44,694 nt of DNA from Candidatus Gastranaerophilales bacterium (GTDB lineage Bacteria; Cyanobacteriota; Vampirovibrionia; Gastranaerophilales; Gastranaerophilaceae). The stretch lies in assembly GCA_944326615.1 (NCBI GenBank), contig CALVEO010000011.1, forward strand, positions 1 to 44,694, written 5' to 3'. Position numbers and translations under genes: made by a program. Positions 7,259-44,182 of this stretch are shown here, one piece after another. Under the pieces are notes generated by a model. That model made no database searches. It had not been told where the DNA came from and was given only the letters and a program-made list of their open reading frames with translations. Position 1 is the first letter of the stretch; every line of letters begins with the position of its first letter.

Positions 7259-7417
7259 ACGTCTAACCCTCTGTTTATTTTTGTTCAATCTCTTATAATC
7301 CTAACAGATTGAATATTATATTAACTCATCTGAAAGGATTATTTTGCTAGCTGTTTAATAAAAATTTACAAAAAGATTAAAAATTTAAATTATTTGAATT
7401 GTTATCAGCGCCGAATA

Positions 7418-7446
7418 TTGAAAAAAAAAGAAAAATATGTTATTAT
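7418..7446 (+). promoter_or_regulatory. Sigma70-type promoter for the prepilin gene
   Basis: TTGAAA (7418-7423), a 17-base A-rich spacer, TATTAT (7441-7446). It lies about 30 bases upstream of the AGGAAGAGGAAGG ribosome site of the gene at 7484. Confidence 0.65.
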
Positions 7447-7483
7447 ATATATAGATTACTGTAAAGGAAGAGGAAGGATATTA

Positions 7484-8152
7484 ATGAGAAGATTTAAAGG
7501 TTTTACGCTCACTGAACTAATGATCGCTTTGGCTGTTATCGGTATTCTTGTTGCAGTTGTAACCCCTGCTATTATGAAGACAAGACCGAATAAAAATAAA
7601 ATGATGGTTAAAAAGACATTCTATACAACAGAACAAATTGTCAGTACATTGATTAATGATGAAAGATTATACCCTGATATGCGTGATGTATGTGGGGAAG
7701 GGGTTGTACCCGGAGCTGACCCTAATGTTTATTGTGCTTACGGATTTGATTATGATGAATCTGTTACCTATGAAGGTGTCGAATATGAAGGTGATACAAA
7801 ATTTGCAGAGTTGTTTAAAAGCAGATTGAATGTAAAAAGAGACTCTGCTGAAGATGATCTTGTATTTTATACAACGGATGGTGTAAAATGGGATTTGACA
7901 GAAACTAAGGGGGCTTGGAGTGCGGGTGCTGAGCCGGGAGATTTTAATACCGGCCGTATAGGCACTATTATAATTGATGTAAATGGCGATGAAGAACCTA
8001 ATGCAAGACAGAGTGATAGTGATGAAGATAGTTTTGATACCTATCACATTCAGATTTTGTCAAACGGAAAGATGAGAATTGATCCTGCTGACAGCAGAGC
8101 TGTTGATTATGCTACAATCAATACATCAATCAGAGATACTGTTGAAGATTAA
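7484..8152 (+). CDS. Type IV prepilin-like protein (short leader)
   Basis: A 222-residue prepilin/pseudopilin. The leader is only six residues (MRRFKG) and is followed by the N-methylation motif FTLTELMIALAVIGILVAVV, so prepilin peptidase would cleave G|F with Glu at +5. The globular domain is acidic with one cysteine pair (about residues 66 and 79) and ends in a region (GTIIIDVNGDEEPN) shared in type with the other prepilins of this window. The start at 7484 is fixed by the AGGAAGAGGAAGG ribosome site and by the motif position. It is followed at once by rnpB. It is the ordinary counterpart of the long-leader prepilin loci at 15006, 22118 and 28389. Confidence 0.85.
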   Translation: MRRFKGFTLTELMIALAVIGILVAVVTPAIMKTRPNKNKMMVKKTFYTTEQIVSTLINDERLYPDMRDVCGEGVVPGADPNVYCAYGFDYDESVTYEGVEYEGDTKFAELFKSRLNVKRDSAEDDLVFYTTDGVKWDLTETKGAWSAGAEPGDFNTGRIGTIIIDVNGDEEPNARQSDSDEDSFDTYHIQILSNGKMRIDPADSRAVDYATINTSIRDTVED

Positions 8153-14971: not shown

Positions 14972-15005
14972 AATTATGTTGTTTAATTTTAGAAAGGAGA
15001 CTTAT

Positions 15006-16136
15006 ATGAGAAATTTACATTATTATGAAGCTTCGGGGGGGGGGGCATTTCTAGCTGACGGAGATCAAGAAGCCCGGAAGTCAGGCATTTTAAAGATACT
15101 AGGATACTATGGCAGTAAGGCAATAGTAAGTATTGTAAAATTTTTCCCTCTCTTGGGAGATGGATTTATCAGAGGGCAGGAAGCTCGGAAGTCAAGAGGG
15201 CAAGCCAGTTTAGAAGGTAGGAATGTAAGAAGATATGAGGGTAGGCCGTTTACATTAAAAGGCTTATTTCCCAATTGTCAAAGTCTACCTTCTTGTTTTG
15301 ATATAACAAGTTCATGCAAGACACAAATGGCGGCTGGAACGGCTACACTGCCTATTGTAGCCCTCTTTGACGACATTCGTCAAGCCACGTTTAATTTGGT
15401 GAAAGGTAATATGCACGTAGCCACCTACAACAATATCCGTCGAGCTGCATTCACTTTGGCAGAGGTCTTGATTACCTTAGGAATTATAGGTGTGGTAGCT
15501 GCAATGACGATGCCGTCATTAATTCAGGAACACAGAGAAAAGGCTACTGTTGCGAAATTAAAAAAGGTTTATTCAAATCTTAATAATGCTTTTATATTAA
15601 GTATTAGTGAATACGGCAGTGTTAACGACTGGGGAATAACATCAGCTGAGATAGATAATAAAGGTTCTGATTTAATTGCAAGACGCCTGAAAGAATTTAT
15701 GATATCTGCAAAAGACTGCAATTCTGACGGCGGATGCTTTGGAGAAGATACTTATAAAACTCTCGGTCCAGTATCTGAAAGATTTTCCGGCGCAGCAAAC
15801 ACGTTTTCAACTTTTATTTTGGCAGACGGAACATCCATAGGTATCTGGGGAGTAGGTTCAATAAATAAGTATGGCATGATTATAGTCGATATAAACGGCA
15901 AACAAAGACCCAACACAACAGGTAAAGATGCATTCTGGTTTAAAATTACCGAAAATTCAATAGTTCCCCTGGGACTTAAAGGAGAAACAGAGGCTTATAA
16001 TTTCGAAAACTGTATAAATCCTGTCAGCGCATATTACACATCACGCGGCTGCACCGCCTGGGTTATATTTAATGAAAATATGGACTATCTGCATTGCAAG
16101 GATTTGAGCTGGGAGGGTAAAACAAGATGTAAATAA
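15006..16136 (+). CDS. Prepilin with 148-residue repeat-built leader and G11 tract (in frame)
   Basis: A 376-residue protein starting at an ATG with AAAGGAG at the right spacing. The prepilin motif AAFTLAEVLITLGIIGVVAA begins only near residue 147, so the nominal leader is about 148 residues instead of the usual 5-30. That leader holds a G11 tract (codons 10-14), two QEARKS segments, an EGRxxRRYEGR repeat, a CKTQ.AAGTATLP repeat and a 60-bp unit (FNLVKGNMHVATYNNIRRAA). The mature part ends GCTAWVIFNENMDYLHC...TRCK, nearly the same as the prepilin at 27371. With G10 or G12 the frame stops within five codons. An internal ATG at 15411 would give a 13-residue leader and is a real alternative start. 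Confidence 0.8.
   Translation: MRNLHYYEASGGGAFLADGDQEARKSGILKILGYYGSKAIVSIVKFFPLLGDGFIRGQEARKSRGQASLEGRNVRRYEGRPFTLKGLFPNCQSLPSCFDITSSCKTQMAAGTATLPIVALFDDIRQATFNLVKGNMHVATYNNIRRAAFTLAEVLITLGIIGVVAAMTMPSLIQEHREKATVAKLKKVYSNLNNAFILSISEYGSVNDWGITSAEIDNKGSDLIARRLKEFMISAKDCNSDGGCFGEDTYKTLGPVSERFSGAANTFSTFILADGTSIGIWGVGSINKYGMIIVDINGKQRPNTTGKDAFWFKITENSIVPLGLKGETEAYNFENCINPVSAYYTSRGCTAWVIFNENMDYLHCKDLSWEGKTRCK
15035..15045 (+). repeat. G11 homopolymer in prepilin leader
   Basis: Eleven G in a row, ten codons after the start. With 11 the gene reads TCG GGG GGG GGG GCA and stays open. With 10 it meets TAG, and with 12 it meets TGA, within a few codons. Confidence 0.9.
15209..15247 (+). repeat. EGR-RRYEGR dispersed repeat, copy 1
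   Basis: TTTAGAAGGTAGGAATGTAA onward, translated here as LEGRNVRRYEGR. Other copies lie at 25958-25998 and 28211-28270 on the minus strand. Confidence 0.75.
15390..15449 (+). repeat. 60-bp leader unit (single copy)
   Basis: Encodes FNLVKGNMHVATYNNIRRAA directly before the FTLAE motif. It matches the 60-bp units repeated three times at 22148-22327 (consensus F-x-x-V/A-K-x-x-x-H-V-x-x-S-D-N-I-R-x-x-A). Confidence 0.75.
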
Positions 16137-22117: not shown

Positions 22118-23003
22118 ATGATTAACAAACAAAATACAAAACAAACTTTCACTCCGGCTAAAGGTGCTACGCACGTAGTCATTTCCGACAATATTCGTAA
22201 AGAAGCGTTCACTTTGGTGAAAGGTGCTACGCACGTAGTCACTTCCGACAATATTCGTAAAAAAACTTTCAATCCGGCTAAAAATACTTCGCACGTAGCC
22301 ACTTCCGACAATATTCGCCAAGAAGCATTTACACTTGCCGAGGCCTTAATAACCTTAGGAATTATCGGTGTTGTGGCTGCACTAACTCTTCCTGTACTCT
22401 TTGTTAATCACAGAAAAACAGTTGTAGAAACCAGACTGGCAAAATTCTATAGCACAATGAATCAGGCAATATTACAAGCTGAAGTTGATTTAGGAGATAA
22501 AAGAGACTGGCCAGACATCGGAAAAGGTTATGAAGAAGATGAAGATGGCAACCCAGACAAATCTAAATCAATTCCGCTTGCTTGGTTTAACACTTATATG
22601 CGTCCTTATTTGAACCTTCTTAAAGTAAATATATCTTGGACGTGTCCTTGCCTATTTCCCTGATGGCAGCCTTGCTGCTATTAGTGGGTCTGCAATTATT
22701 TTTTATGTCGACGCAAAATATTACAGTGAATATGAAACAGAGAACGGCGGCTCAGTTCCGGATGAAATGAATTCAGGCACACAGTGTTTTCTTTTTGGCT
22801 TTTACCCGAACATAGAAAATGACAAGTTCCATTATAATAAAGGTGTAGAACCATATACACATGGCTGGGACGGCAAAAGAGAAAGTTTATTCACCGGAGA
22901 ATACGGATGCAAAAAAGAAACAAACCGTACAAGACCTTACTGTACTAAACTAATTCAAATGAATGGTTGGAAAATTCCTAAGGACTATCCGCTGAGATTT
23001 TAA
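22118..23003 (+). pseudogene. Frameshifted prepilin with triple-repeat leader
   Basis: Starts at an ATG after GAGAGGGAGAC. A 70-residue leader made of three 60-bp units precedes EAFTLAEALITLGIIGVVAA, a typical prepilin motif (Glu +5). The first frame ends at 22663. From about 22632 a second frame reads YLGRVLAYFPDGSLAAISGS and runs on to 23003 (ending GWKIPKDYPLRF), as expected for the rest of the pilin domain. The break falls at AAATATATCTT; adding one AT there would restore K-V-N-I-Y-L-G-R. So this is one gene broken by a small indel, not two genes. A sequencing error cannot be excluded. Confidence 0.75.
22148..22327 (+). repeat. Three tandem 60-bp units in prepilin leader
   Basis: Units at 22148-22207, 22208-22267 and 22268-22327, most alike in the GCACGTAG(T/C)CA(C/T)TTCCGACAATATTCG part. 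Each encodes 20 residues (consensus FTLVKGATHVVTSDNIRKEA) and begins with FTP, FTL or FNP, a decoy of the FTLAE motif that follows directly at 22328. Confidence 0.9.
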
Positions 23004-27370: not shown

Positions 27371-28389
27371 TTATTTACATGTTTTTTTCCCTGTCCAGCT
27401 TAAATCATCACAATGAAGATAATCCATATTTTCATTTATTAAAACCCAGGCAGTACAGTTTATACCTCCATTGCCTTTTGGAATACAGCCAAGACTTTTC
27501 AAAGACTTGTCAGTTTTATCGTAACCGTATGGGACAACTTTATATTTTTTATAAAGGAATAAAAATAAATCTTTTCCAGAGGTATTAGGACCAGCTTTGC
27601 CATTAATATCAACCCATATTTCACCGTAATTTCTATTATCATCAGCAACAGAGTTAGCCCCATACCCTTCAATTGCGAGAAGAGTTCCATCAGCAAGAAC
27701 AAGTTTGTAATATCTGTTATTTAAATTTTCAAAATCCCGTTCCGCACTACCGGCCAAATTTTTATAACCGCCTGCAACAAAGCATCCTTTTGATTCATAT
27801 CCGCAGTCTTTTGCGATTTTTAATTGTTTTACGAGATTTTTGACGGCAAATCTTGTGATTGTATCTTCACTTTCTTCCTCATCTTCATACTGATATGAAT
27901 CCCATAAATCAGGAGTTCCATTTTCGTTAATAGCAGCAACTAATGCCTGAGACAGTGTACTGTATACTTTTTTCAAACGTGTAACAGTCACTTTTTCACG
28001 ATGCTTTTGAATTAAAGAAGGCATCGTCATAGCAGCGACAACCCCAATAATTCCTAAGGTAATCAACACCTCAGCCAGAGTGAACGCAGCGCGTTTTTTA
28101 AGTGAAGTGTGAAGAGTGAAACGTGAAGTGGATTTTTCTGCTTTCCTCCCCTGGGGGAGGGAATGAGGGAGAGGGTTATCAGAAGATAAGAGGGTAGGAG
28201 GAAAGGAAAATAAGCTTTTTACCGTAAATAGCCTACCCTCATACCTTCTTATCTTCCTACCTTCCAAATAAAATCTTGCTGCTTTAGTGCGGTAGTACCT
28301 TTGTATCTTTTTAAATTCTACAAAATCGCAAACCTTTGTTATCCCTGACTTTGCGGGGGGGGGGCGATTCTCAGCTCTTCTCTATTCAT
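27371..28389 (-). CDS. Prepilin with long leader, currently out of frame at a C10 tract
   Basis: The ATG at 28389 has a perfect AGGAGG 7 bases upstream. Reading from it, MNREELRIAPPPQSQG ends at TAA because of a C10 tract. With C11 the frame passes through 41 codons into the open frame that begins EGRKIRRYEGRLFTVKSLF, reaches KKRAAFTLAEVLITLGIIG (leader about 102 residues) and ends at 27371. The mature part is paralogous to the prepilin at 15006, with a near-identical end (NCTAWVLINENMDYLHC...KKTCK). No ATG precedes the motif inside the pilin frame; a TTG at 28267 lacks a ribosome site. So expression appears off as sequenced, and one added C would switch it on. Confidence 0.8.
28144..28179. 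repeat. CTCTCCC palindrome within prepilin leader
   Basis: TCCTCCCCTGGGGGAGGGAA followed by TGAGGGAGAGGGTTATC. It is translated on the minus strand as DNPLPHSLPQGRK in the leader of the 28389 prepilin. Confidence 0.6.
28211..28270 (-). repeat. EGR-RRYEGR dispersed repeat, copy 3
   Basis: Minus-strand TTTGGAAGGTAGGAAGATAA and on to GAGGGTAGGCTATTTACGG, translated as EGRKIRRYEGRLFT. It matches 15209-15247 and extends further into the VKSLF/LKGLF part. Confidence 0.75.
28355..28364 (-). repeat. C10 homopolymer in prepilin leader
   Basis: Ten C on the coding strand, eight codons after the ATG. C10 gives a stop after 17 codons, C9 gives a stop further on, and only C11 (or C11 plus or minus 3n) joins start and pilin. 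Confidence 0.9.
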
Positions 28390-28482: not shown

Positions 28483-29403
28483 TTAATGTATTGTTATTTC
28501 GTAGTCTCCGTTATTAATCTTAAAGTTCATGCGTATAGTCTCTCCGTTGTATTCATCAGGCGGGGGCGAAAAACGAGGAACACTCATAAGCATATAATAA
28601 ACAGTATCGTTTAAACCTTTATTTGAAGATTCTTTTGAGAATTTTCTATTTATAAGTTTGCCTGTTTTATCAACTGAAAATTGAATAGAGCATTCTCCAG
28701 AGCCTTGAATACTTCCTACTGCAAATTTTGAAAATAACGCAGCACGCAGATTGTTTTTGTATCTCAGCATCTCAGGGCTGTTTGGATTGTAAGCCGGTTT
28801 TTGTGGAGCTAAAAGCTCTGGATTTACAGGCATATCTTTTTTTATATTAGTTATATTATTATTTTTTTTTTGAACCTGCACAATTTTTTTCGGGGCAGAT
28901 GATTTTGCAGAGGATGTTTTTGGGGCAGGTTTTGATATTTGTGAGGTCTGAGTATTGTTTGCTGTTTTAGGTTTATTAATTTGCGTGACCGATTCTGTAA
29001 GCTGTCTTACGTAATCAACCGGTGTCATTGGCTTTTCAACGGGCTCAGGTTCCGGACGCGGCTCATATAGCGGCGTATCATCCCAGATTTTATCAATGTC
29101 TGGAATATTTTTGGTTACAGCCGGTTTTTGTTTTGCGTGAATGTTTGTTTTTTGTGTTTTAGCCGGTTTATCGTTTACAGGTATCATCCAGACAAGAATT
29201 GACAGAATTATACAAAGTCCAAAAAATATTCTTGAAACAATTTCTGATTTCTGTTCAAGCGTAAGAGGACGATGAGTCTGTTTTTCAGGAACAGATTTAA
29301 CCGCCGGTTTTGTATCTTCTATGTAGTCAAAGGTATTATTCCCGCAATCGCAGTATTCGACTTTTTCTTTGTATTCAGCTTTACATTCTCTACATCTGTA
29401 CAT
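28483..29403 (-). CDS. Zinc-ribbon membrane protein with TonB-like C-terminal domain
   Basis: A 306-residue protein. A small zinc-ribbon-like start (CRECKAEYKEKVEYCDCG, residues 4-21) is followed by one membrane segment (about 60-78, FFGLCIILSILVWMIP), a long Pro/Lys/Thr/Ser linker and a TonB C-terminal-like domain (about 210-306: CSIQFSVDKTGKLINRKFSK, then VPRFSPPPDEYNG). The layout spans the periplasm from a cytoplasmic metal-binding end. It is the last gene of the vWA/FHA/TonB operon. No ExbB/ExbD is present, so classic TonB action is not shown. Confidence 0.75.
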   Translation of the reverse strand: MYRCRECKAEYKEKVEYCDCGNNTFDYIEDTKPAVKSVPEKQTHRPLTLEQKSEIVSRIFFGLCIILSILVWMIPVNDKPAKTQKTNIHAKQKPAVTKNIPDIDKIWDDTPLYEPRPEPEPVEKPMTPVDYVRQLTESVTQINKPKTANNTQTSQISKPAPKTSSAKSSAPKKIVQVQKKNNNITNIKKDMPVNPELLAPQKPAYNPNSPEMLRYKNNLRAALFSKFAVGSIQGSGECSIQFSVDKTGKLINRKFSKESSNKGLNDTVYYMLMSVPRFSPPPDEYNGETIRMNFKINNGDYEITIH

Positions 29404-29410
29404 AACAAAA

Positions 29411-29590
29411 TTATCTTATCACAAATAATCCTAATTTATAAATAACAAAAAATATCAGCACAATAATAAGCATAATAAGTAAAATTGCAGTTTCTCTTAT
29501 TATGTCAAAATTTTTATGTGCCTGCATAAATTTAATTCCAAAAGGAATTTCTATTAATATGCATAAAAGTGTGCAAATTATCGCCAACAA
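29411..29590 (-). CDS. Small membrane protein, 59 residues
   Basis: Two hydrophobic segments (AIICTLLCILIEIPFGIKF and AILLIMLIIVLIFFVIYKLG). The frame is open upstream to an ATG at 29617, but AAAAGGAG lies 8 bases before the TTG at 29590, which is the better start and does not overlap the coding end of the 46-residue gene. Function unknown; part of the vWA/FHA/TonB operon. Confidence 0.5.
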   Translation of the reverse strand: MLAIICTLLCILIEIPFGIKFMQAHKNFDIIRETAILLIMLIIVLIFFVIYKLGLFVIR

Positions 29591-29591
29591 A

Positions 29592-29732
29592 TTATTTACT
29601 CCTTTTAAAAATAACATTTTCAAGTTGAATAGTCTTATGCATTTGAGGTTTAATATTTGCAATTACTGCTGTTGCAGCAGCCACTATGATTAAAGCTATT
29701 ATTGCAATGATTGTAATTTTCATTCCGTTCAT
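29592..29732 (-). CDS. Tiny single-span membrane protein, 46 residues
   Basis: Begins ATG at 29732, sharing the A of the upstream TGA stop (TGATG), a translational-coupling arrangement. The product MNGMKITIIAIIALIIVAAA continues into a short basic tail ending FKRSK. It is too short for routine gene calling, but its overlap and the ribosome site for the next gene inside its 3' end support it. Function unknown. Confidence 0.55.
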   Translation of the reverse strand: MNGMKITIIAIIALIIVAAATAVIANIKPQMHKTIQLENVIFKRSK

Positions 29733-30577
29733 CAGTATGTTACCCTTTCGTAGTCGGAAAAGTCATTCGGAGTAGAATATCTTTCCTGTGTTCCGATTAA
29801 GAATAAACCTGTTACTACAGTTGATGTTCTTTGAGTTCCTTTTGGAAAATTCAGTATAGGTTTTTTTTGCAGGTTTGCAATTGCCGGTTTTACGTTGTTT
29901 CTGGCTATATCCATGTAATTTGGATTTGAACATTCGACTTTTATGTTAGAAATGTTGCCGTATTTGTCAACAACAAATGTGAATAAGAAAAGTGTTCCAA
30001 GAGGTGCGTAATCTATTTGAGAATCACGCATAATCTGGTTTTGCAGATTACTTCTCCATTTGTTCCAGGCTATGATTTCTTCCTGCTCTGTCATATACGG
30101 GTTTTTAAAATTCGGATTTGCTGCAGGTTTCTGGCGTTGTGTACGCGGTTGTGTTTGAGTTTCCGGCTCTGTGGTCTCTTTTTCTACCTGCTCAAGTATT
30201 TGTTCCAGAAGTTCAATTTGTGAAGTATCTTCAGGTGGTGTTTCGGTTTTTATTCTTTTTTCAGTTTGCTGTTGTTTCGGTTTGGAAGTATTTATATATT
30301 TAGTTTCAGTTTGTGAAACAGGTTTCGCTGTTTCTATTTCTTTTTGAATTGTTTTTAAGTCAGGGGCAGGCGTTTCAACAATTTTTTCTGTTGTTTTTGG
30401 CTTTTGTGCTGATGAGCTGACCGGAATATTTTTGGTAGACAGAGTATCGCTTATTCTTGTTAGTTTAAAGTCAGCATCTTCTATAATCATCGGCTGGTGC
30501 ATATCAGGATGAAGCTTCAGCGTAATGATTGTTAAAACAATAAATGAAATTATTACAAGAACCTTTAAAAAATTCAT
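29732..30577 (-). CDS. TonB-like membrane-anchored protein
   Basis: A 281-residue protein with an N-terminal membrane anchor (about 4-22, LKVLVIISFIVLTIITLKL), a Pro/Thr/Lys/Glu-rich linker (about 50-150) and a TonB C-terminal-like domain (about 160-270: WRSNLQNQIMRDSQIDYAPL, 'FTFVVDKYGNISNIKVECS', 'NVKPAIANLQKKP'). This is the TonB layout, but no ExbB/ExbD is nearby. It starts 2 bases after the FHA-like gene and overlaps the next by one base, so it is firmly within the operon. Confidence 0.75.
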   Translation of the reverse strand: MNFLKVLVIISFIVLTIITLKLHPDMHQPMIIEDADFKLTRISDTLSTKNIPVSSSAQKPKTTEKIVETPAPDLKTIQKEIETAKPVSQTETKYINTSKPKQQQTEKRIKTETPPEDTSQIELLEQILEQVEKETTEPETQTQPRTQRQKPAANPNFKNPYMTEQEEIIAWNKWRSNLQNQIMRDSQIDYAPLGTLFLFTFVVDKYGNISNIKVECSNPNYMDIARNNVKPAIANLQKKPILNFPKGTQRTSTVVTGLFLIGTQERYSTPNDFSDYERVTY

Positions 30578-30579
30578 AA

Positions 30580-32196
30580 TTAATCTTTATCTACTTTAGA
30601 AAGCAATTCATCGCAGGCATAAATATCAAATTTTGTCTGACTCAGCATCATAGTTTCCGCAATCAGTAAGGCTGTCGGGACAAGCGCCGCTACCAAACTT
30701 AAGAAAATTCCCTGCATATCTCCGCCGATTTCCGTCATAAAATATGAGACGTTCATTGCAAATTCAATAAATATAATTGCGCAGGCGATTGCAAGCGAGC
30801 GGTTTTTCTCGGAATTCAATCTTCTGACGCCTTCAAGACCGTATATTGTAACGCCATGGTGTTGATAGTCGGAAAATCCGTCCTGTTTGATTACCTGCGA
30901 GCCTTGAATTTTTTTCGTACAGAAAAATGCATTAACAAAAGAAAAGAACGCAAAGATAATCAAAAATGTCGCAAGAGTTAAAAATACAGGGCTTATTCTC
31001 AGACCTGAAATTCTAACCCATCCGGCAGCTTCAGGAAAACACATTGCAAGAGTGTTTGAAACACCGTATGCAAGAAATGGTGCTGTCAAAATTCCGACAA
31101 CTGTTTCGCCAAGAGATTTTAACTGTTTGTTGAACATTTTATCTTTTATATATTGAAGTTTTGAATTGCTCAAACTGTTTATATATCTTTCAATCCATTG
31201 TCTGTAAGATTTTATGACGCTTTCAAAATCTTCTCTGTATTCGTATTTGTCAAGTGTCATTGTCCATTCAAAACCGTTGCATTTGAAATACCCGCAGCTT
31301 ATCGCAAGAACTGCCATTATGCCGGAGAAAAAGAATGATATAAATATTGCAAATGTCATAAAATCATTCAAATTCATATAATAAACCAGATTTACTACAT
31401 AAATTCCGAGCACAAATATCAGTGAAAATATAAGCATAAAACTCTGTCCGAGTTTGGCGGATTTTGACATATCTTTCTGGATATTGCTTTGAAGATACAG
31501 GTAAACACCCTGCTTCAAAAGCAGGCAGATGCCGTAAATCAAAATTGTATATACACCCCAGACTTTTATGTTTGTCGGCAGATGAAGGAAGTTTGCAGAT
31601 TCTTTGATTTCAAGTCCCATAAGGTAGTTTGAAACTCCGAATGCGCAGACCATTGCACTTAAAAACATTGCGATATGCAGGAATATACTTGTTTTGGTGT
31701 TGGCAGAAAGTTTTTGTTTCAAATCATTTATATGGAATGCAACCTGTTTAATTATTGCAACACGCGCATCTTCAAGATCTTCTTTTTGTTTTTCAAGTTT
31801 TACTTTTGTAACTGCGTTGACATCTTTGCCGTAAAGTCCTTTGATATCATCTTCCGTTAAATCTTCTTTACCGATTGAGGTTACTGTTTTGGTCTGTGCA
31901 GCGTGGGTTTCTTCGGCCGTAATTTTTACGCTTAAAAATTCTTCAGTACCTGCAAACATTAATTTACAGACATTCCCAACTTCAACACGTTTGACAGGCT
32001 GGCCTTTAAAAAGAACTTTATCGCTTTTAAAGGTATTTATTATAACGCATTTATTTTCATAAGGTTTATATTCAAGCGTCAGTAAAACATCGTAGCCTGT
32101 GTTTAATATAACATCGCAATTCGGGTTTGTTCCGACATTTATAACATCTTTTGCAAATTTTTTTTCGCCTTGTGAAGTTGATATAATAACAGCCAT
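30580..32196 (-). CDS. Polytopic membrane protein with FHA-like N-terminal domain
   Basis: A 538-residue protein. Residues 1-95 look like an FHA or FHA-like beta-sandwich (EKKFAKDVINVGTNPNCDVI, with short beta strands after it), a fold that often binds phosphothreonine. After a charged linker come about eight membrane segments (for example MFLSAMVCAFGVSNYLMG, LGQSFMLIFSLIFVLGIYVV, PVFLTLATFLIIFAFFSFV, LVAALVPTALLIAETMML). I do not recognise the family of the membrane part. It lies between a vWA protein and a TonB-like protein and could be the core of an envelope complex. Confidence 0.7.
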   Translation of the reverse strand: MAVIISTSQGEKKFAKDVINVGTNPNCDVILNTGYDVLLTLEYKPYENKCVIINTFKSDKVLFKGQPVKRVEVGNVCKLMFAGTEEFLSVKITAEETHAAQTKTVTSIGKEDLTEDDIKGLYGKDVNAVTKVKLEKQKEDLEDARVAIIKQVAFHINDLKQKLSANTKTSIFLHIAMFLSAMVCAFGVSNYLMGLEIKESANFLHLPTNIKVWGVYTILIYGICLLLKQGVYLYLQSNIQKDMSKSAKLGQSFMLIFSLIFVLGIYVVNLVYYMNLNDFMTFAIFISFFFSGIMAVLAISCGYFKCNGFEWTMTLDKYEYREDFESVIKSYRQWIERYINSLSNSKLQYIKDKMFNKQLKSLGETVVGILTAPFLAYGVSNTLAMCFPEAAGWVRISGLRISPVFLTLATFLIIFAFFSFVNAFFCTKKIQGSQVIKQDGFSDYQHHGVTIYGLEGVRRLNSEKNRSLAIACAIIFIEFAMNVSYFMTEIGGDMQGIFLSLVAALVPTALLIAETMMLSQTKFDIYACDELLSKVDKD

Positions 32197-32229
32197 TTTT
32201 TTATCCTCTTTGACAATTATTGCGTACTT

Positions 32230-32904
32230 TTATCTCCCCAGTGCATGAAGAAATCTTCTTATTGATTTATCAATATTTTGTTTTGGGGCAACGATTAAAT
32301 GATTTTCGCCCAAAACAGGTGTAAGTGTTTCTTTTACAAGATCCAGTTTCGCAGGATGTGCATCAAGAAACATCATTGAAATATCAGGAGCGTATTTTTT
32401 TACATTTTGTACATTTTTGGGCAGAGTTTCCCAATTTATTTGTTTTTCAATTGCACCTTCGTTTTCCAAATCTCCTATTACAACAACTGCCGGCACATAA
32501 CCGTTCTTTTTCATTGTAAGGGCGTGTGAAAAAGCTTTCTTCAAGCCGACGCCGTATGCAGTTCCGTAATCTTTTTCATCGTATTTAGTGAACGCATCCA
32601 TTGATTTTGTAATAGTGCTTCCGTTCATCGGTCCGCCTTCATAAATCAAATACGCGTCTTCTGAAACTCTTAAAATTTTAATTTGATCTTCAGGGTCAAG
32701 CAGATTGCATATTTGTCTTAAAGTTTTTTTCTGTTCCGGCAGATATTTTTGGTTTGACGCGGAAGAATCAATTACAAATATTACAGCTGCAGGATGAAAT
32801 TCATCCACCTTAATCTGGCTTACTCCAGCCCAGATAAATTTTAAAGCAACCGATAAAATAAGTATTAATAATCCAACTGTAACCAATCTTTTGTTTAATT
32901 TCAT
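32230..32904 (-). CDS. von Willebrand factor A-domain membrane protein
   Basis: A 224-residue protein. One N-terminal membrane segment (about 8-27) anchors a periplasmic vWA domain with a MIDAS-type DSSAS (46-50) at the end of the first strand (AAVIFVIDSSAS) and VVVIGDLENEG as a later strand. vWA domains mediate metal-dependent protein contacts. It is the first gene of the operon running to 28483, 33 bases before the FHA-like gene. It resembles Bat-type vWA proteins in layout, but no MoxR ATPase is adjacent. Confidence 0.8.
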   Translation of the reverse strand: MKLNKRLVTVGLLILILSVALKFIWAGVSQIKVDEFHPAAVIFVIDSSASNQKYLPEQKKTLRQICNLLDPEDQIKILRVSEDAYLIYEGGPMNGSTITKSMDAFTKYDEKDYGTAYGVGLKKAFSHALTMKKNGYVPAVVVIGDLENEGAIEKQINWETLPKNVQNVKKYAPDISMMFLDAHPAKLDLVKETLTPVLGENHLIVAPKQNIDKSIRRFLHALGR

Positions 32905-33058: not shown

Positions 33059-33084
33059 AGATCCCGAAACAAGTTCGGGATGAC
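33059..33084. repeat. AGATC-CGAAACAAG palindrome, copy 1
   Basis: AGATCCCGAAACAAGTTCGG followed by GATGACA; the CCCGAA and TTCGGG arms pair. Related copies lie at 33133 and 34732. Confidence 0.75.
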
Positions 33085-33132
33085 AAAATCAGAAAATATA
33101 GATGAGATGCTGAATTTATTTCAACATCTCAT

Positions 33133-33159
33133 AGATCTTGAAACAAATTCAGCATGACT
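33133..33159. repeat. AGATC-CGAAACAAG palindrome, copy 2
   Basis: AGATCTTGAAACAAATTCAG followed by CATGACT; a diverged copy of the element at 33059. Confidence 0.65.
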
Positions 33160-33177
33160 ATATAATTTCTAAAACAA

Positions 33178-33207
33178 ACTCCTCAGAATTTTCTGAGGAG
33201 TTTTTAG
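33178..33207 (-). terminator. Terminator of the gene at 33211
   Basis: ACTCCTCAG and CTGAGGAGT form a 9-bp stem around AATTTT, right after the stop on the minus strand. Confidence 0.75.
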
Positions 33208-33210
33208 ATT

Positions 33211-34047
33211 TTAGTCAAATTTTGGATTTATCTTATTAAATGCATTTTTATTAACTTTGCTTCTTTTAGAACTTTGGCCTTTGTCTCCTCTTTTGAGAAC
33301 TTTGGCCTTTGTCTCCTCTTTTGAGAACTTTTCAGGGGTTTTTGCAAATTTTTCAGCAAATGTCTTATCTACAACAGCATTTTTATTAAAGTGCGGTATA
33401 TCCGCTTGTTTAATTTTTCCATAAAATGGTTTTGCTGTTTCAACTTCCCCTCTGAGGACTTTTCTTGTATCTACCATCATTCTATCCAATAGTTGTTGAA
33501 GTTTATTTGTTGTTTGTCCGTATCTTTCTAATAGGTATTTAGCATCAAATTCTCTTGCTAATTCTACTCCTTTTTGTTCGTCAAATTCTATATGATGTCT
33601 TGTTGCCTGTCCTACTGATGTATCAGCAGTAACTTTCCCGCCTTTGCGTGACATACCGACTGCAATATCTTTTCCGTCTGCGACTTTGCGGCCGTCGATA
33701 AATCCGTTAGCTTGCAGGGTTTTACCGCCGTCTGCTGAGACACGATACTTGACGACAGAATTGGCTGAACCTGGATTTGTTATTGATAATGCCCCCTGAT
33801 TGAGTACCTGTTTCCCGTCTCTTAATCTCATACCTGCAATTGCATAATTTGATTCTGCTTTGTAAGCCACATCAAGTTTTGGCTCTTTTATACCTCTTAA
33901 CGCTTTTTGAATCAGTTCGCCTGCTTTCTTGTCTTGTTTCCCGAGAGCTTCCAACTGTGTACGTCCCAGAGTAATTCGACCTGCTGCTCCTTCTGTTTTT
34001 GGAAGTGCTCTAACAATTTTGCTTGCGATGTTCATGAAATTTACCAT
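33211..34047 (-). CDS. Unknown protein with rewritten C-terminus
   Basis: A 278-residue basic protein, with AAAGGGGAAAA before the ATG. Residues 1-100 are Gly/Lys/Ala rich (SKIVRALPKTEGAAGRITLG...), and the middle includes RHHIEFDEQKGVELAREFDA and a helical stretch (TTNKLQQLLDRMMVDTRKVL). Function unknown. Two perfect 28-bp copies in tandem near the 3' end shift the frame, so the tail reads VLKRGDKGQSSKRSKVNKNA...NPKFD. With one copy it would read VLKEAKLIKMHLIR and stop. It is a single-gene unit with a terminator. Confidence 0.65.
   Translation of the reverse strand: MVNFMNIASKIVRALPKTEGAAGRITLGRTQLEALGKQDKKAGELIQKALRGIKEPKLDVAYKAESNYAIAGMRLRDGKQVLNQGALSITNPGSANSVVKYRVSADGGKTLQANGFIDGRKVADGKDIAVGMSRKGGKVTADTSVGQATRHHIEFDEQKGVELAREFDAKYLLERYGQTTNKLQQLLDRMMVDTRKVLRGEVETAKPFYGKIKQADIPHFNKNAVVDKTFAEKFAKTPEKFSKEETKAKVLKRGDKGQSSKRSKVNKNAFNKINPKFD
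33271..33326 (-). repeat. 28-bp perfect tandem duplication in coding sequence
   Basis: Two identical units (33271-33298, 33299-33326). Because 28 is not a multiple of 3, copy number sets which of three C-terminal tails is made. Confidence 0.9.
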
Positions 34048-34298: not shown

Positions 34299-34625
34299 AT
34301 GGGTGTAAAACAGGAATTCGGGAAAAAAATAAAAAGAATGCGCATAAACCGCGGGCTGACACAGGAGGAGCTTGCAGAAGCTGTTGACTTGTCCCAGCGT
34401 GCTATGAGCGGAATTGAAACAGGCGAAAATTTTGTGTCGGCTGAAACCATTGATAAACTTGTAAAAGCACTTGATACAACGCTTGAAGAACTGTTTTCAA
34501 CCGATCATTTAAAAGTTGATACCGAACTCCGTCAGGAAATAGATGAAAAACTGGATTACCTAAACAATGACAGTGAAAAACTGATTATAGTCTATAATGT
34601 GATTAAGAGTCTTTTGAAAGAGTAA
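34299..34625 (+). CDS. XRE-family transcriptional regulator
   Basis: A 108-residue protein with an N-terminal helix-turn-helix (FGKKIKRMRINRGLTQEELA, then VDLSQRAMSGIETGENFVSA) at about residues 7-62 and an acidic helical tail (about 75-108). It resembles the regulator at 21655-21972. No ribosome site of strength precedes the ATG. Its target is unknown; it diverges from the unknown gene at 33211. Confidence 0.85.
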   Translation: MGVKQEFGKKIKRMRINRGLTQEELAEAVDLSQRAMSGIETGENFVSAETIDKLVKALDTTLEELFSTDHLKVDTELRQEIDEKLDYLNNDSEKLIIVYNVIKSLLKE

Positions 34626-34985: not shown

Positions 34986-35798
34986 TTATTCCGCTATATT
35001 CATATAAGGTGAAACAGTCAAAGGTTCTGAAAGTTTCAGCTCAATTGTAGTGCCGTCAGGAATTTGAATATCCTCTCCCCGTTGCATAGCACCGCGCAAA
35101 CCTCCGCCTAAAGCGCCGATACCGCCATAGATTGCCATATTTCTTCCCCAGTCATCTCCGCCTCCGAGTGCTGTAAAAGCCGCACCGATAAGCATTGAGC
35201 CTAATGCTCCTATTACCACATCACGTGTCATCTTTTTTGCACGCTCGCTTTTTGCTTCCATATAAATGTTTTCTGTTGAAACTTTCAGCATATTTCCATC
35301 AGGTGTAAGTATTTTGTTAAAATTAATTTCTAAAGAGCCGCTTCCGTATGCATAACCCGCATTTTGCGCATCAGCCGCAGTTCCGTAAATCAAACTTCCT
35401 GCAGGGGCAATTAATACCCCGTTGTAAACAAAGTCCCGCGTAAGTTTTGCTGTGAGCCTGTCATTTTTCTCTAAACTGCCGGAGCTTATCCCCGAATCAA
35501 ACGTTACCGGAAATGTTGTACCTTCAGGAACTTTTACAACCTGCCCGAATAAAGGTCTTTGCTGAGGTTCAAAGGTATTATTTATAACTTCTTCTTCAAC
35601 AATAGGATTATAATTTGTCCGTTCGCTATTATTTTTTATTTCCGAGGAATTTTTCTTTCTGGTAAAATCAACGGGCTGAAACATTTGAGATTGTTTTCTG
35701 TCAAATTCCGCCTGTGCCTCATCGCTGAAATCATATTCCGCGAAAGCAGGCATAGCTATGATATGAAAACATATAAAGAGAGCCAAAATCTTTTTCAT
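34986..35798 (-). CDS. Secreted protein with TrbI/VirB10-like C-terminal domain
   Basis: A 270-residue protein with a signal peptide (MKKILALFICFHIIAMPAFA). Residues about 90-270 resemble the VirB10/TrbI C-terminal region: VPEGTTFPVTFDSGISSGSL, NDRLTAKLTRDFVYNGVLIA, PAGSLIYGTA, then a Gly-rich helix pair (ALGSMLIGAAFTALGGG, GGIGALGGGLRGAM) and IPDGTTIELKLSEPLTV. No other type IV secretion gene is nearby, so it is more likely a stand-alone periplasmic protein of this fold than part of a conjugation system. Confidence 0.65.
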   Translation of the reverse strand: MKKILALFICFHIIAMPAFAEYDFSDEAQAEFDRKQSQMFQPVDFTRKKNSSEIKNNSERTNYNPIVEEEVINNTFEPQQRPLFGQVVKVPEGTTFPVTFDSGISSGSLEKNDRLTAKLTRDFVYNGVLIAPAGSLIYGTAADAQNAGYAYGSGSLEINFNKILTPDGNMLKVSTENIYMEAKSERAKKMTRDVVIGALGSMLIGAAFTALGGGDDWGRNMAIYGGIGALGGGLRGAMQRGEDIQIPDGTTIELKLSEPLTVSPYMNIAE

Positions 35799-40277: not shown

Positions 40278-40360
40278 AAGTTAAAACCTCACTTTTTGTT
40301 CATTCTTATAATATAATACAAAAACTTTTTTGGCAAGTGGCAAAAATTTACGCGTTGTTG

Positions 40361-40366
40361 TATAAT
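40361..40366 (+). promoter_or_regulatory. -10 box of the MCE gene, leaderless geometry
   Basis: TATAAT, six bases (CGGTTT), then ATG at 40373, without a ribosome site. A weak -35 (TGGCAA) lies 17 bases upstream. Confidence 0.45.
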
Positions 40367-40372
40367 CGGTTT

Positions 40373-41002
40373 ATGAAAATATTTGAGGGTATCCATAAAT
40401 ATATTTTACTGGAAGCCGGTATATGGTTTCTAATATTGTGTGCTGTTATAGCTGGTGTAAGAATTCATCATTACAATAATGAAAAAAAACTTGTAACATA
40501 CCAGATATTTATGCCTGATGTAGACGGGCTTATTGTTGGATCGCCTGTTAAGTTTATGGGTGTGCAGGTCGGTTATATTGAGAAAATAAAAATAGTCTCT
40601 AATGACGTTTATTTAAAAATTGTTATAACCGATAAAGATGTTGAACTGCCGAAAGGAGCTATTGCCACAGTGGAATTTAACGGTATGGGAGGTTCTAAGT
40701 CACTTGAAGTTTATCCGCCGACAAAAGAAAGCCTGGCTATGAATAAACTGCTTATCGTGCAAAACCCGAAAAGACTTCATGATTCTTTAGGGCTCTTGAA
40801 TGACATGTTTGATAAAATAGGTTCTATTACGACAAAATTGTCATTTTTTGCCAGAGAAACAGGTGTTATGGATATTAATAACGGTATTCATACATCAGAA
40901 ATTCAAACTAATATGTCGGCGTTTGAGAAGTTAATGAAAGAAGTTTCCGATATAAGAAAAGAAGGAGTTAAGTATGGACAAGACCAGAGTAAGAGTTATT
41001 AA
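40373..41002 (+). CDS. MCE/MlaD-family membrane protein
   Basis: A 209-residue protein. It has one N-terminal membrane segment (about 11-28, LLEAGIWFLILCAVIAGVRI) and an MCE domain (about 40-125: VDGLIVGSPVKFMGVQVGYI, KGAIATVEFNGMGGSKSLEV). MCE proteins form rings that carry lipids between the inner and outer membranes. The C-terminal 80 residues are helical. An upstream in-frame GTG (40337) would be before the predicted transcript start. The gene overlaps upp by 29 bases. No MlaE or MlaF is adjacent, but an MlaA-domain protein is 1 kb away. Confidence 0.85.
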   Translation: MKIFEGIHKYILLEAGIWFLILCAVIAGVRIHHYNNEKKLVTYQIFMPDVDGLIVGSPVKFMGVQVGYIEKIKIVSNDVYLKIVITDKDVELPKGAIATVEFNGMGGSKSLEVYPPTKESLAMNKLLIVQNPKRLHDSLGLLNDMFDKIGSITTKLSFFARETGVMDINNGIHTSEIQTNMSAFEKLMKEVSDIRKEGVKYGQDQSKSY

Positions 41003-41639: not shown

Positions 41640-41979
41640 GCTCCACCCAATGTGGCGGATGGAACGGCTACGTTCCCTCGTAATGACATTGAAAGTTTAT
41701 GCAAGACCCAGGTAGCGGGTGCAGCGGCTACGTTGCCGCAAAGGGGAGAAGGAATAAGTAACTACAATCAAATTATAGATGAAAATCGGCCCTCACCCCA
41801 ACCCATAGGAGAGGGTGCGAAACCGACTTATTCACAGAATATGATAAGACCCCTCACCCTAGCCCTCTCCCACAAGGGGAGAGGGAAATCCACTTCACTT
41901 TTCACGCCACATTTCACTTAAAAAACATGCCGCTTTCACTCTGGCGGAGGTTTTGATTACCTGCTGTTTTATGACTTAA
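41640..41979 (+). pseudogene. Orphan prepilin leader with FTLAEVLIT remnant
   Basis: Contains the leader-type repeats CKTQ.AG.AATLP (41700-41735), two CTCTCCC palindromes (41790-41817, 41850-41885), a TTCACTTTTCACGCC stretch, and then AAACATGCCGCTTTCACTCTGGCGGAGG, which encodes KKHAAFTLAEVLIT in a frame that stops soon after (CCFMT, TAA at 41977-41979). This is the 5' part of a prepilin gene like that at 28389 without a pilin body; an 89-codon open frame across it (41652-41921) is not a real gene. Its end overlaps the last codons of the MlaA-hydrolase gene on the other strand. Confidence 0.7.
41790..41885. repeat. Two CTCTCCC palindromes
   Basis: CCCTCACCCCAACCCATAGG...GAGAGGGTG (41790-41817) and CCCTCACCCTAGCCCTCTCC...ACAAGGGGAGAGGG (41850-41885). 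Both arms pair; they are the clearest examples of the type also found in dxr and the prepilin leaders. Confidence 0.7.
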
Positions 41980-44052
41980 AGATATTTCATGTTTTAAATC
42001 TTTAAGAAACTCAGGTGTGTATAAAAATCCAAGATGGGCACCGTTACTTAGCAGCAGTGTTTTTTTACCTGTGCGGATTTTTAATTGTTTTAGCTGTTTT
42101 GTATTTACCAGATAATCGTCTAATGAATGATAAATTTTGTAATTTGTACTGTTTTGCAGAAAATCAGATATTGAAAGCAGGCTCGATTCATTACGCAAAT
42201 CTTCAAGTGTTTTATCTTTAAGAAGATATTTTTCTGTATAGTCTCTGTAATTCATGTTATTGATAGTAGTGTAGATATCTGTTTTTTTATTTTTCGGTGT
42301 ATTTTCAAGGGTAAAAATAAGATCTGACAATTTTTGGTGCATTATAAAACCTGTAATTAGTTTTCCTTCTTCTTCAGTAAACGGGAGACTTTCAAGGTTA
42401 AGGTCTTTTGCAGTGTCTTTCATATCAGTTAATTGAACCACTTTTGCTGCGGTAATACCTGCTTTTTGTTTTAAATCATCTGCGTTTTTATTCCATTCTT
42501 CACTGTTTTTATCAACCTGTTCCATTGCGTAAACAAGCTCTACCGGCGGACAGATTGAAATGTATTTTGTAATGTCCAGAGTGTTGTTTTTGAATTCTTC
42601 ATCAGCAAGGAAAAGAGTTGTCAATGCGCCGAAGGATGTTCCGATTACAATTTTCCCGTTGAATTTACAGTTATATTTATTTTCAAGCCTGTTGATAATT
42701 TTACCCGTAACTGTTTTCAGATATTGGGCATCGACTGCCGGGATTCCCGGGCTGTAACCTTGAGGCATGCTCTTTACAAACTCCCACTGAAAGTGGCTCC
42801 CCTGAATTATGACAGAATATCCTTCATCATAAAATATTTTTGCAAGTACAACCGAGTGATGTGATGTTATTCCTTCACCGATTGACGGGTAAATTATTGC
42901 AACAGGCGAGTTTTTATCTTTCTGCATAATATATTTGAACTTATAATCAGCTCTGTCAGGTGTAATATTTACTGATGAAGTTTTAATTTTTTTGCTAAAA
43001 CATCTGTTCCATATTGAAAGTTCATTCCATATTGATTCATCAACTTCGGGCAGGTCAAAGAGAGCTGTTCTCATTGAATCTACAACCGGATTTTGCGGGT
43101 TGTAATCTTCGATCAGCATATCAGCCATAAGCTGTGAATTATCAAGAGTGTAACTTTTCAGAATAATATTATCAATATTAGTGCCCCCTTTTATAATATC
43201 TGCTACTGTTAATTTGCCTTCATTGTTTTGGGGAGTTTCATATTTACCTCTCATATTTAATGTATTTTCGACTAATTCATTTGATTTTTGTTTTTCTTCT
43301 TCTGCGGCTTTGAAACCGTTTTCGAGAATTTCTTTTCTATCAAGATTGCCGCATTTAATATAATTATCAATTCCGTACATTTTTCTTGCAATTTCATAAG
43401 GATCTGCATAATTTGATTCAATCATTTTTATTAAAGGCTGTATATATGAGGTTCTGTTTACAGTAAGTCCTGCTTTTACCATTGCAAGTACGGGAGTGCC
43501 CACGTAAGTTGTAGGGTTTAAAGATGTGTCAAGAATTTTCCCTGCAATACCTCTCGCTGTTGTGCCGTTCATTACTGGAAGTACAATATAAGAGCCTGAA
43601 TTACATTTACATTTTGCCAGAGCCTGTTCTATATCTTCATTAACAGGTTCCAGTTTAAAATACCTTTTTGCAGGATCAAACATTCCGCCTATGCCGATTG
43701 TTGTATTTGTCAAAAATCTTAGTGTTTCTGTACCTGATGCTTTAAAATCTTTTTGAATAAGTGTGCTGATTAGTCTTTTAGGGTATTCAATATTTCTGTA
43801 AGCTGTTTGTATCCGCTCAATTCCGTATTCAGGCATCACAGAGCACCAGAGTATGTGTACAGGGCGGATTGCGTATTTGTTCAGGCCGAGATTGAATGCA
43901 AAAACTTTTCTGTTTATTTTTTCGTATTTGTCCGGACCGAGATAAATGTATGCGTAATCAGGGTATTTACTATTAATTTTGGCAAGTTCTTCTGCATCGG
44001 CTGAGACGAAGGCGCTCAGCAATATTGTAAAAATAATAAATAATTTTTTCAT
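41914..44052 (-). CDS. MlaA/VacJ-domain protein fused to an alpha/beta hydrolase
   Basis: A 712-residue protein. GAGGA before the ATG at 44052 sets the start. A signal peptide (about 1-20, cleavage ADA|EE) lacks a lipobox, so it is not a lipoprotein. Residues about 40-220 are MlaA-like: NRKVFAFN (47-54), RFLTNTTIGIGGMFDP (112-127), YIVLPVMNGTTARG. MlaA removes misplaced phospholipid from the outer membrane. Residues about 350-690 are an alpha/beta hydrolase: GTSFGA with Ser near 473 as nucleophile elbow, and GAHLGFL with a candidate catalytic His near the end. The fusion suggests lipid transport joined to lipid cleavage. The final 15 residues are written on the reverse of a prepilin remnant. 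Confidence 0.8.
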   Translation of the reverse strand: MKKLFIIFTILLSAFVSADAEELAKINSKYPDYAYIYLGPDKYEKINRKVFAFNLGLNKYAIRPVHILWCSVMPEYGIERIQTAYRNIEYPKRLISTLIQKDFKASGTETLRFLTNTTIGIGGMFDPAKRYFKLEPVNEDIEQALAKCKCNSGSYIVLPVMNGTTARGIAGKILDTSLNPTTYVGTPVLAMVKAGLTVNRTSYIQPLIKMIESNYADPYEIARKMYGIDNYIKCGNLDRKEILENGFKAAEEEKQKSNELVENTLNMRGKYETPQNNEGKLTVADIIKGGTNIDNIILKSYTLDNSQLMADMLIEDYNPQNPVVDSMRTALFDLPEVDESIWNELSIWNRCFSKKIKTSSVNITPDRADYKFKYIMQKDKNSPVAIIYPSIGEGITSHHSVVLAKIFYDEGYSVIIQGSHFQWEFVKSMPQGYSPGIPAVDAQYLKTVTGKIINRLENKYNCKFNGKIVIGTSFGALTTLFLADEEFKNNTLDITKYISICPPVELVYAMEQVDKNSEEWNKNADDLKQKAGITAAKVVQLTDMKDTAKDLNLESLPFTEEEGKLITGFIMHQKLSDLIFTLENTPKNKKTDIYTTINNMNYRDYTEKYLLKDKTLEDLRNESSLLSISDFLQNSTNYKIYHSLDDYLVNTKQLKQLKIRTGKKTLLLSNGAHLGFLYTPEFLKDLKHEISLSHKTAGNQNLRQSESGMFFK

Positions 44053-44182
44053 TTTAATCCTCACTGTAAAAATATTTTTTTATAATTCTGCAAGAATTTT
44101 TATTACCGTTTGAGCTAGTTATGAGAATGAAATTTGTATTTACATTTAGGCGGTTATAGATTATAATTTTTTCGGAGGTTAT

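Follow-up and report, generated by a model that had tools for sequence, protein, structure and literature searches.

A conserved Gastranaerophilales gene set that probably builds a machine linking the inner and outer membranes

What do six tightly packed envelope genes do in a bacterium whose order, related to cyanobacteria, is often met in animal guts and has hardly been cultured? The genes lie at positions 28483-32904, on the minus strand, of contig CALVEO010000011.1 from a Candidatus Gastranaerophilales assembly (GCA_944326615.1); we analysed the whole stretch of 44,694 nucleotides, called here the window. An earlier note, made from the sequence alone, had read them as a trans-envelope complex of a von Willebrand A (vWA) protein, an eight-span protein with an FHA-like domain, two TonB-like proteins and two tiny membrane proteins. 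Gene order, co-occurrence, a TonB-type arm and a VirB10-like partner, u270, strengthened the trans-envelope reading, and the conserved gene set probably builds an uncharacterised machine linking the inner and outer membranes. An open-access literature search, with most subscription papers outside its scope, found no description of the operon.

The six genes and u270, with the names used here, are:

32904-32230, minus strand: vWA, 224 amino acids
32196-30580, minus strand: FHA538, 538 amino acids, 33-base gap after vWA
30577-29732, minus strand: P281, 281 amino acids, 2-base gap after FHA538
29732-29592, minus strand: tiny46, 46 amino acids, 1-base overlap with P281
29590-29411, minus strand: tiny59, 59 amino acids, 1-base gap after tiny46, TTG start behind AGGAG
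29403-28483, minus strand: tonBz, 306 amino acids, 7-base gap after tiny59
34986-35798, minus strand: u270, predicted secreted protein like the VirB10 C-terminal domain or TrbI, with a two-helix hairpin at the antenna position

All six genes of the earlier note are present and tightly packed, with intergenic gaps of -1 to 33 bases. The operon as it was drawn is nevertheless incomplete, because u270 is part of it in the majority of relatives and is a further ancestral member beyond the six-gene span. In the window two genes, 33211-34047 (minus strand) and 34299-34625 (plus strand), separate u270 from vWA. Inverted repeats lie at 33061-33203, between the vWA gene and the upstream gene, where u270 became separated from vWA.

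Gene order and distribution

Gene order is conserved far beyond chance. The census covered 103 loci (L025-L067, L088-L107 and L114-L153; L001-L024, L068-L087 and L108-L113 were left out), and the extent of the operon was compared on 60 stretches fetched from around copies in further genera. The consensus order is u270-vWA-FHA538-P281-(tiny46-tiny59)-tonBz. The copies are not all independent, because at least two pairs, L047/L151 and L062/L152, each look like one contig seen twice. A scan of genome contigs with FHA538 gave 43 loci at 65-98% identity, whose neighbours and their order are, with few exceptions, unchanged, and by name the relatives are mostly Candidatus Gastranaerophilales or Melainabacteria metagenome-assembled genomes from the gut.

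vWA stands directly upstream of FHA538 in 95 of the 102 full-length copies, or 96 if we include L094, where vWA overlaps FHA538 by 56 bases and was scored missing in the automatic count. P281 is directly downstream in 97 of the 102. Gaps fall within -60 to 120 bases for every adjacent pair of vWA and FHA538 (96/96), FHA538 and P281 (97/97) and tiny46 and P281 (45/45), and tiny59 sits between tiny46 and tonBz in 31 loci, with median gaps of 0 and 7 bases. u270 adjoins vWA in 47 of the 94 loci with room upstream and lies 1-5 kb off in 14 more. Ahead of u270 there is a tiny46-like gene in eight loci; in six an open reading frame at this place scored as P281-like, and the one in L092 and L104 encodes a short protein with the tiny46-type span and motif. 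Six loci carry the variant u270-FHA538-P281-tonBz, without vWA, and five loci of one genus carry vWA-FHA538-tonBz, without P281. Two of these five were checked by Pfam and have the potassium-uptake genes TrkA-TrkH directly upstream (L097:3376-9362 and L105:202-6180). Potassium transport was rejected as a general role, since these neighbours occur in one genus only.

Profile searches placed FHA538 in 101 of 292 genomes of the phylum, all within the window's family. Within the order, 260 of 383 genomes (30 of 52 genera) had it, again all of that family except for one 66%-complete genome of another. The earlier note had suggested a search for genes that always occur together. vWA and FHA538 are such a pair: both were found in 247 of the 383 genomes and vWA alone in none, a count that rests on comparing genome lists (13 FHA538-positive genomes lack vWA, and 260-13=247). 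Eleven of the 13 belong to genus g18 and have a weak match (E 1e-19 to 1e-25) of the FHA type. As every genome with vWA also has FHA538, and the exceptions are mostly these weak matches, the two genes appear to be gained and lost together. Several genomes have two or three FHA538 matches. In g18 a stand-alone 99-residue FHA protein akin to the FHA538 N-terminus is encoded at L100:6387-6686 and L101:6021-6320, and some members have the stand-alone protein without full-length FHA538.

The proteins of the operon

The vWA protein has one N-terminal span, a signal anchor, followed by a vWA domain that scored above the Pfam cut-off (PF13519, E 1.1e-6; PF00092, E 8.9e-6). The metal-ion-dependent adhesion site (MIDAS) claimed for it is borne out by its sequence: the pattern DxSxS, G[TS]AY and GD[LI] is complete in the window copy and in 87 of 94 distinct copies, and a metal site is predicted. 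The N-terminal Lys and Arg residues suggest that the domain is extracytoplasmic. Against solved structures the vWA profile gave just spurious repeat-protein matches.

FHA538 appears to consist of a cytoplasmic FHA fold (residues ~1-95), a helical stretch and eight membrane spans. The FHA-like domain had been recognised correctly, though Pfam does not detect it: Foldseek matches the N-terminus to Rv1747 FHA-1 (E 9.2e-5, probability 1.00, template-modelling score 0.76 to the target). In all 101 rows position 23, where canonical FHA domains have the Arg of the GR motif, holds T, S, N, A or K, which points to a real fold without the phosphothreonine-binding Arg. Eight hydrophobic segments, the number given in the earlier note, run through the 101 aligned copies, with in-span charges that are invariant (K228 and E478) or 99% conserved (E514), and a TAPFLAYGVSNTLAMCFPEAAGW block is strongly conserved. 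The protein matched none of the families of Pfam or NCBIfam, and no transporter family in particular; with gene order conserved as well, neither of the results that the earlier note had named as refuting its reading came about. Profiles of FHA538, P281 and u270 found no solved structure. We considered an internal duplication of spans 1-4 and 5-8. The pairs AFGVSNYL/AYGVSNTL and NLVYYM/NVSYFM, seen by eye, hint at one, and hhalign aligned the halves in the expected register over 104 columns (score 19.0, E 0.027, probability 1.8; 20 reversed and rotated controls scored 11.1-13.3). We do not claim it.

Two proteins could serve as arms. tonBz has a cytoplasmic four-Cys ribbon, one span, an IPxIDxxWDDTP box, a Pro/Lys-rich linker of ~127 residues and a TonB_2 C-terminal domain. 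Its C-terminus scores above the Pfam cut-off (PF13103, E 7.2e-7), its profile matches TonB in PDB (E 0.0033), and the domain aligns with the TonB of a locus encoding ExbB and two ExbDs (hhalign probability 97.1, E 6e-11). The zinc ribbon proposed for it agrees with four cysteines, C4, C7, C18 and C20, that are invariant in 20 rows, and with a Cys pattern that 69 of 73 N-termini share. P281 has a single span followed by a P-x-M-H motif (P-x-[MLIV]-H in 71 of 94 copies), a linker of ~117 residues rich in T, K, E, P and Q, and a TonB-like C-terminal domain. The claim of two TonB-type folds thus holds for tonBz and is weaker for P281, whose domain aligns with that of tonBz over 48 columns (hhalign probability 79.5, E 1.5e-5) and gave a Pfam TonB match in 0 of 28 members.

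The remaining two proteins of the span are very small. tiny46 has one span and then a K-P-x-M-H-K type motif like that of P281, present in 49 of 49 distinct copies, and so looks like a P281 N-terminus without the remainder. tiny59 is a two-span hairpin. A defence-system library gave no match for five proteins, and a scan of NCBIfam gave nothing above cut-offs.

u270 has a signal peptide and a near-invariant YDFSDEAQ segment. Its AlphaFold model combines a VirB10-type C-terminal barrel with a glycine-rich helical hairpin and matches CagY (Foldseek E 1.2e-7). The first 14 PDB matches of the model are all of the VirB10 family (VIA Z 12.2 to 7.7), the fifteenth being an unrelated enzyme at 3.8, and at E<=0.1 Pfam TrbI matched 29 of 32 relatives, with the window copy below the gathering score. 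The model thus predicts that u270 folds like a VirB10 outer-membrane ring protein.

A proposed transducer and its alternatives

We tentatively propose, at something short of even confidence, that the gene set specifies a trans-envelope transducer working as a VirB10 would if it were divided into pieces and joined with TonB. Its support comes from the conserved order, the joint presence of vWA and FHA538, the VirB10 fold of u270 and the TonB domain of tonBz. u270 would form an outer-membrane ring or gate, and P281 and tonBz would cross the periplasm, their C-terminal domains docking on u270 or on its YDFSDEAQ segment. FHA538 would be the inner-membrane platform seating the membrane segments of the arms, with vWA as its periplasmic MIDAS clamp. 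Because tiny46 has the same membrane-plus-motif piece as P281, it could occupy or compete for the P281 docking sites. A change of shape in FHA538, or a flow of ions there, would set the arms in motion, and the outer-membrane ring would open, close or be dragged. Adhesion and surface movement are conceivable purposes; our first guess is that the machine exports a substrate or acts as a gate at the outer membrane.

If this is true, the machine joins two textbook systems, TonB transduction and the outer-membrane cores of type IV secretion; it would show a role for the VirB10 ring outside secretion and would give a function to an eight-span membrane family without known relatives. In a bolder version, which we think distinctly unlikely, FHA538 would found a class of its own, an inner-membrane energiser or gated channel in place of ExbBD and VirB4, its conserved buried charges driving the P281 and tonBz arms on the u270 ring. 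The whole would be a minimal, ATPase-free split VirB10 confined to gut Melainabacteria, in which vWA is the clamp that bears the load and tiny46 a plug that mimics an arm.

Several points weigh against the transducer. There is no u270 near 33 of 94 copies and no tonBz near 24 of 102, a few of these being cut by contig ends, and 18 loci have the short form vWA-FHA538-P281 alone, without u270 or tonBz; P281 is missing in five loci and vWA in six. The ring and the zinc arm are thus not always required, or lie elsewhere: loci without them, the short form included, may use parts encoded at other places, or vWA-FHA538-P281 may be the true core. The likeness of P281 to TonB is weak. The FHA538 model, built from 22 relatives, has a mean predicted local distance difference test score (pLDDT) of 52.5, with ~80 in the FHA domain and mostly 30-60 in the spans, and the hairpin helices of the u270 model fall below a pLDDT of 50. 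That the operon proteins form one complex, as the earlier note had it, is a step that we infer.

The first alternative is that the arms are driven by a known motor. ExbB and ExbD are absent from the operon, as the earlier note had said, but not ExbD from the genome: two ExbDs lie on another contig, and ExbD occurs in 37 of 39 genomes, the window's included. The search for an ExbBD pair found one outside the operon in G019, G034 and G024, in the order u270-like gene(s)-TonB-ExbB-ExbD-ExbD (Pfam was run on the G019 copy):

L109:5905-10168: VirB10-like gene(s), TonB, ExbB and two ExbDs
L110:9473-13630: VirB10-like gene(s), TonB, ExbB and two ExbDs
L111:5315-10173: VirB10-like gene(s), TonB, ExbB and two ExbDs

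In the window's own genome this locus is apparently split, with TonB (C15 1068-1316) and a u270-like place (C15 2321-2962) side by side on contig C15 and the ExbD pair at the end of C35. As relatives of u270 adjoin the TonB of this locus too, TonB and a VirB10-like protein are a recurring pair in the lineage. TonB_2 domains number 6 in the window's genome, 4-13 across the genus and 1-4 in other families. A secreted-looking protein with a C-terminal TonB_2 domain is encoded at 1276-2145 of the window (plus strand). One contig with two ExbDs carries flagellar-export genes of the FliM/N, FliP and Bac_export_1 (FliR) types (L108:1094-5058).

P281 and tonBz could accordingly be extra TonBs energised by the genome's ExbB-ExbD-ExbD, with FHA538 and vWA merely positioning or regulating them; several TonBs sharing one ExbBD are known in other bacteria. 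On balance we consider this unlikely. In E. coli an S-x3-H motif in the spans of TonB and TolA couples them to ExbB and TolQ. The motif is present in all three TonBs of the ExbB-ExbD-ExbD locus, but among 96 P281 and 75 tonBz copies no membrane span has it (the 2 and 3 matches, respectively, fall outside the spans), and its absence fits a partner other than ExbB. G003 (84% complete) and G021 (97%) have no ExbD match, yet both carry FHA538. The motor is also present in families without the operon and so is not a dedicated partner. TonB-dependent receptors (PF00593) are lacking from the window's genome and from 33 of the 39 genomes, being present in 6. Because the spans are without the S-x3-H that the TonBs of the motor locus have, and receptors are mostly missing, we favour FHA538 over ExbB as the likely inner-membrane partner of P281 and tonBz.

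A gliding or adhesion machine like Agl-Glt of Myxococcus, with counterparts of GltG, GltJ, CglB and AglRQS, seems improbable despite a close match of the domain lists. FHA, a zinc ribbon, two TonB arms and vWA/MIDAS are shared with Agl-Glt and Nfs, and GltJ carries a zinc ribbon alongside its TonB domain. Agl-Glt has a motor (AglRQS) of one TolQ and two TolR type; relatives of our genome have ExbB and two tandem ExbDs, and the window's genome has two ExbDs, such a motor lying elsewhere than in the operon. In the parts of these papers that we consulted, GltG is described as FHA plus PF03544 and as binding AglR (PMC3169522), GltG and GltJ as TonB-domain proteins (PMC5349195), and CglB, in a title cited in PMC12288465, as a vWA surface adhesin. 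The likeness is one of domain inventory. Whereas GltG has FHA, span and TonB in one chain, here FHA is on an eight-span protein and the TonB domains are on other chains; the outer-membrane partner is a VirB10-like ring and not the Glt barrels; the operon has no TPR (GltD/E/I-like) gene; and vWA is predicted to be anchored in the inner membrane, not to be an outer-membrane lipoprotein. Gliding is unmentioned for Gastranaerophilales in the portions of the literature consulted. A role in motility cannot be argued from the lineage, since PMC4040986, in the part consulted, reports some Gastranaerophilales as non-flagellated and others as flagellated.

We give little credence to a static tether or sensor without transported substrate (Tol-Pal-like, or sensing cell-wall or K+ stress): a conserved vWA and a degenerate FHA would suit scaffolding, and the one-genus loci without P281 and next to TrkA-TrkH speak for it, but the in-span charges K228, E478 and E514 and the VirB10-like ring suggest moving parts.

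Elsewhere in the window are type IV pilin-like genes (7394-8152, 14976-16136, 22118-22663 and 27371-28267), several with unusually long leaders in the listed frames; Pfam finds an N-terminal methylation motif in the last. Judged by eye, 40337-41002 (plus strand) encodes an MCE/MlaD-like protein and 41914-44064 (minus strand) an MlaA/VacJ-like domain joined to a larger C-terminal portion.

Comparison with known systems

SjdR of Anabaena is likewise a cyanobacterial TonB-like envelope protein with a role other than transport, but it has no TonB-type C-terminal domain, and the part of PMC8262864 consulted describes no vWA, FHA or VirB10-like neighbours for it.

With TonB-ExbB-ExbD the transducer that we propose shares membrane-anchored arms, Pro-rich linkers and the TonB C-terminal domain. 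It differs in the operon's lack of ExbBD, in spans without S-x3-H and in a genome without a TonB-dependent receptor, on which account we rejected conventional siderophore or TonB uptake.

The likeness to the VirB10 proteins (TrwE, TraF, CagY, ComB10 and DotG) lies in the C-terminal barrel and helical hairpin of the u270 model and in the logic of arm plus ring. A single VirB10 chain runs from a cytoplasmic N-terminus through one span and a Pro-rich linker to the barrel; here arm and ring are on separate proteins, and the arm ends in a TonB domain. Type IV secretion itself is another matter. The operon has the VirB10 fold, but a VirB4-type ATPase (PF03135) was found in 0 of 39 genomes, with a positive control that matched in Caulobacter. 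For CagX/VirB9 (PF03524) none of the 39 genomes passed the cut-off; there were 4 sub-threshold matches, all outside the window's family. Without VirB4, conventional type IV secretion was rejected.

The operon is not placed in type IV secretion because VirB4 and VirB9 are missing, nor in the classical TonB system because the span motif and the receptors are. Our best reading is that it works like a TonB/VirB10 transducer, and we do not assign it to either of these systems or to Agl-Glt.

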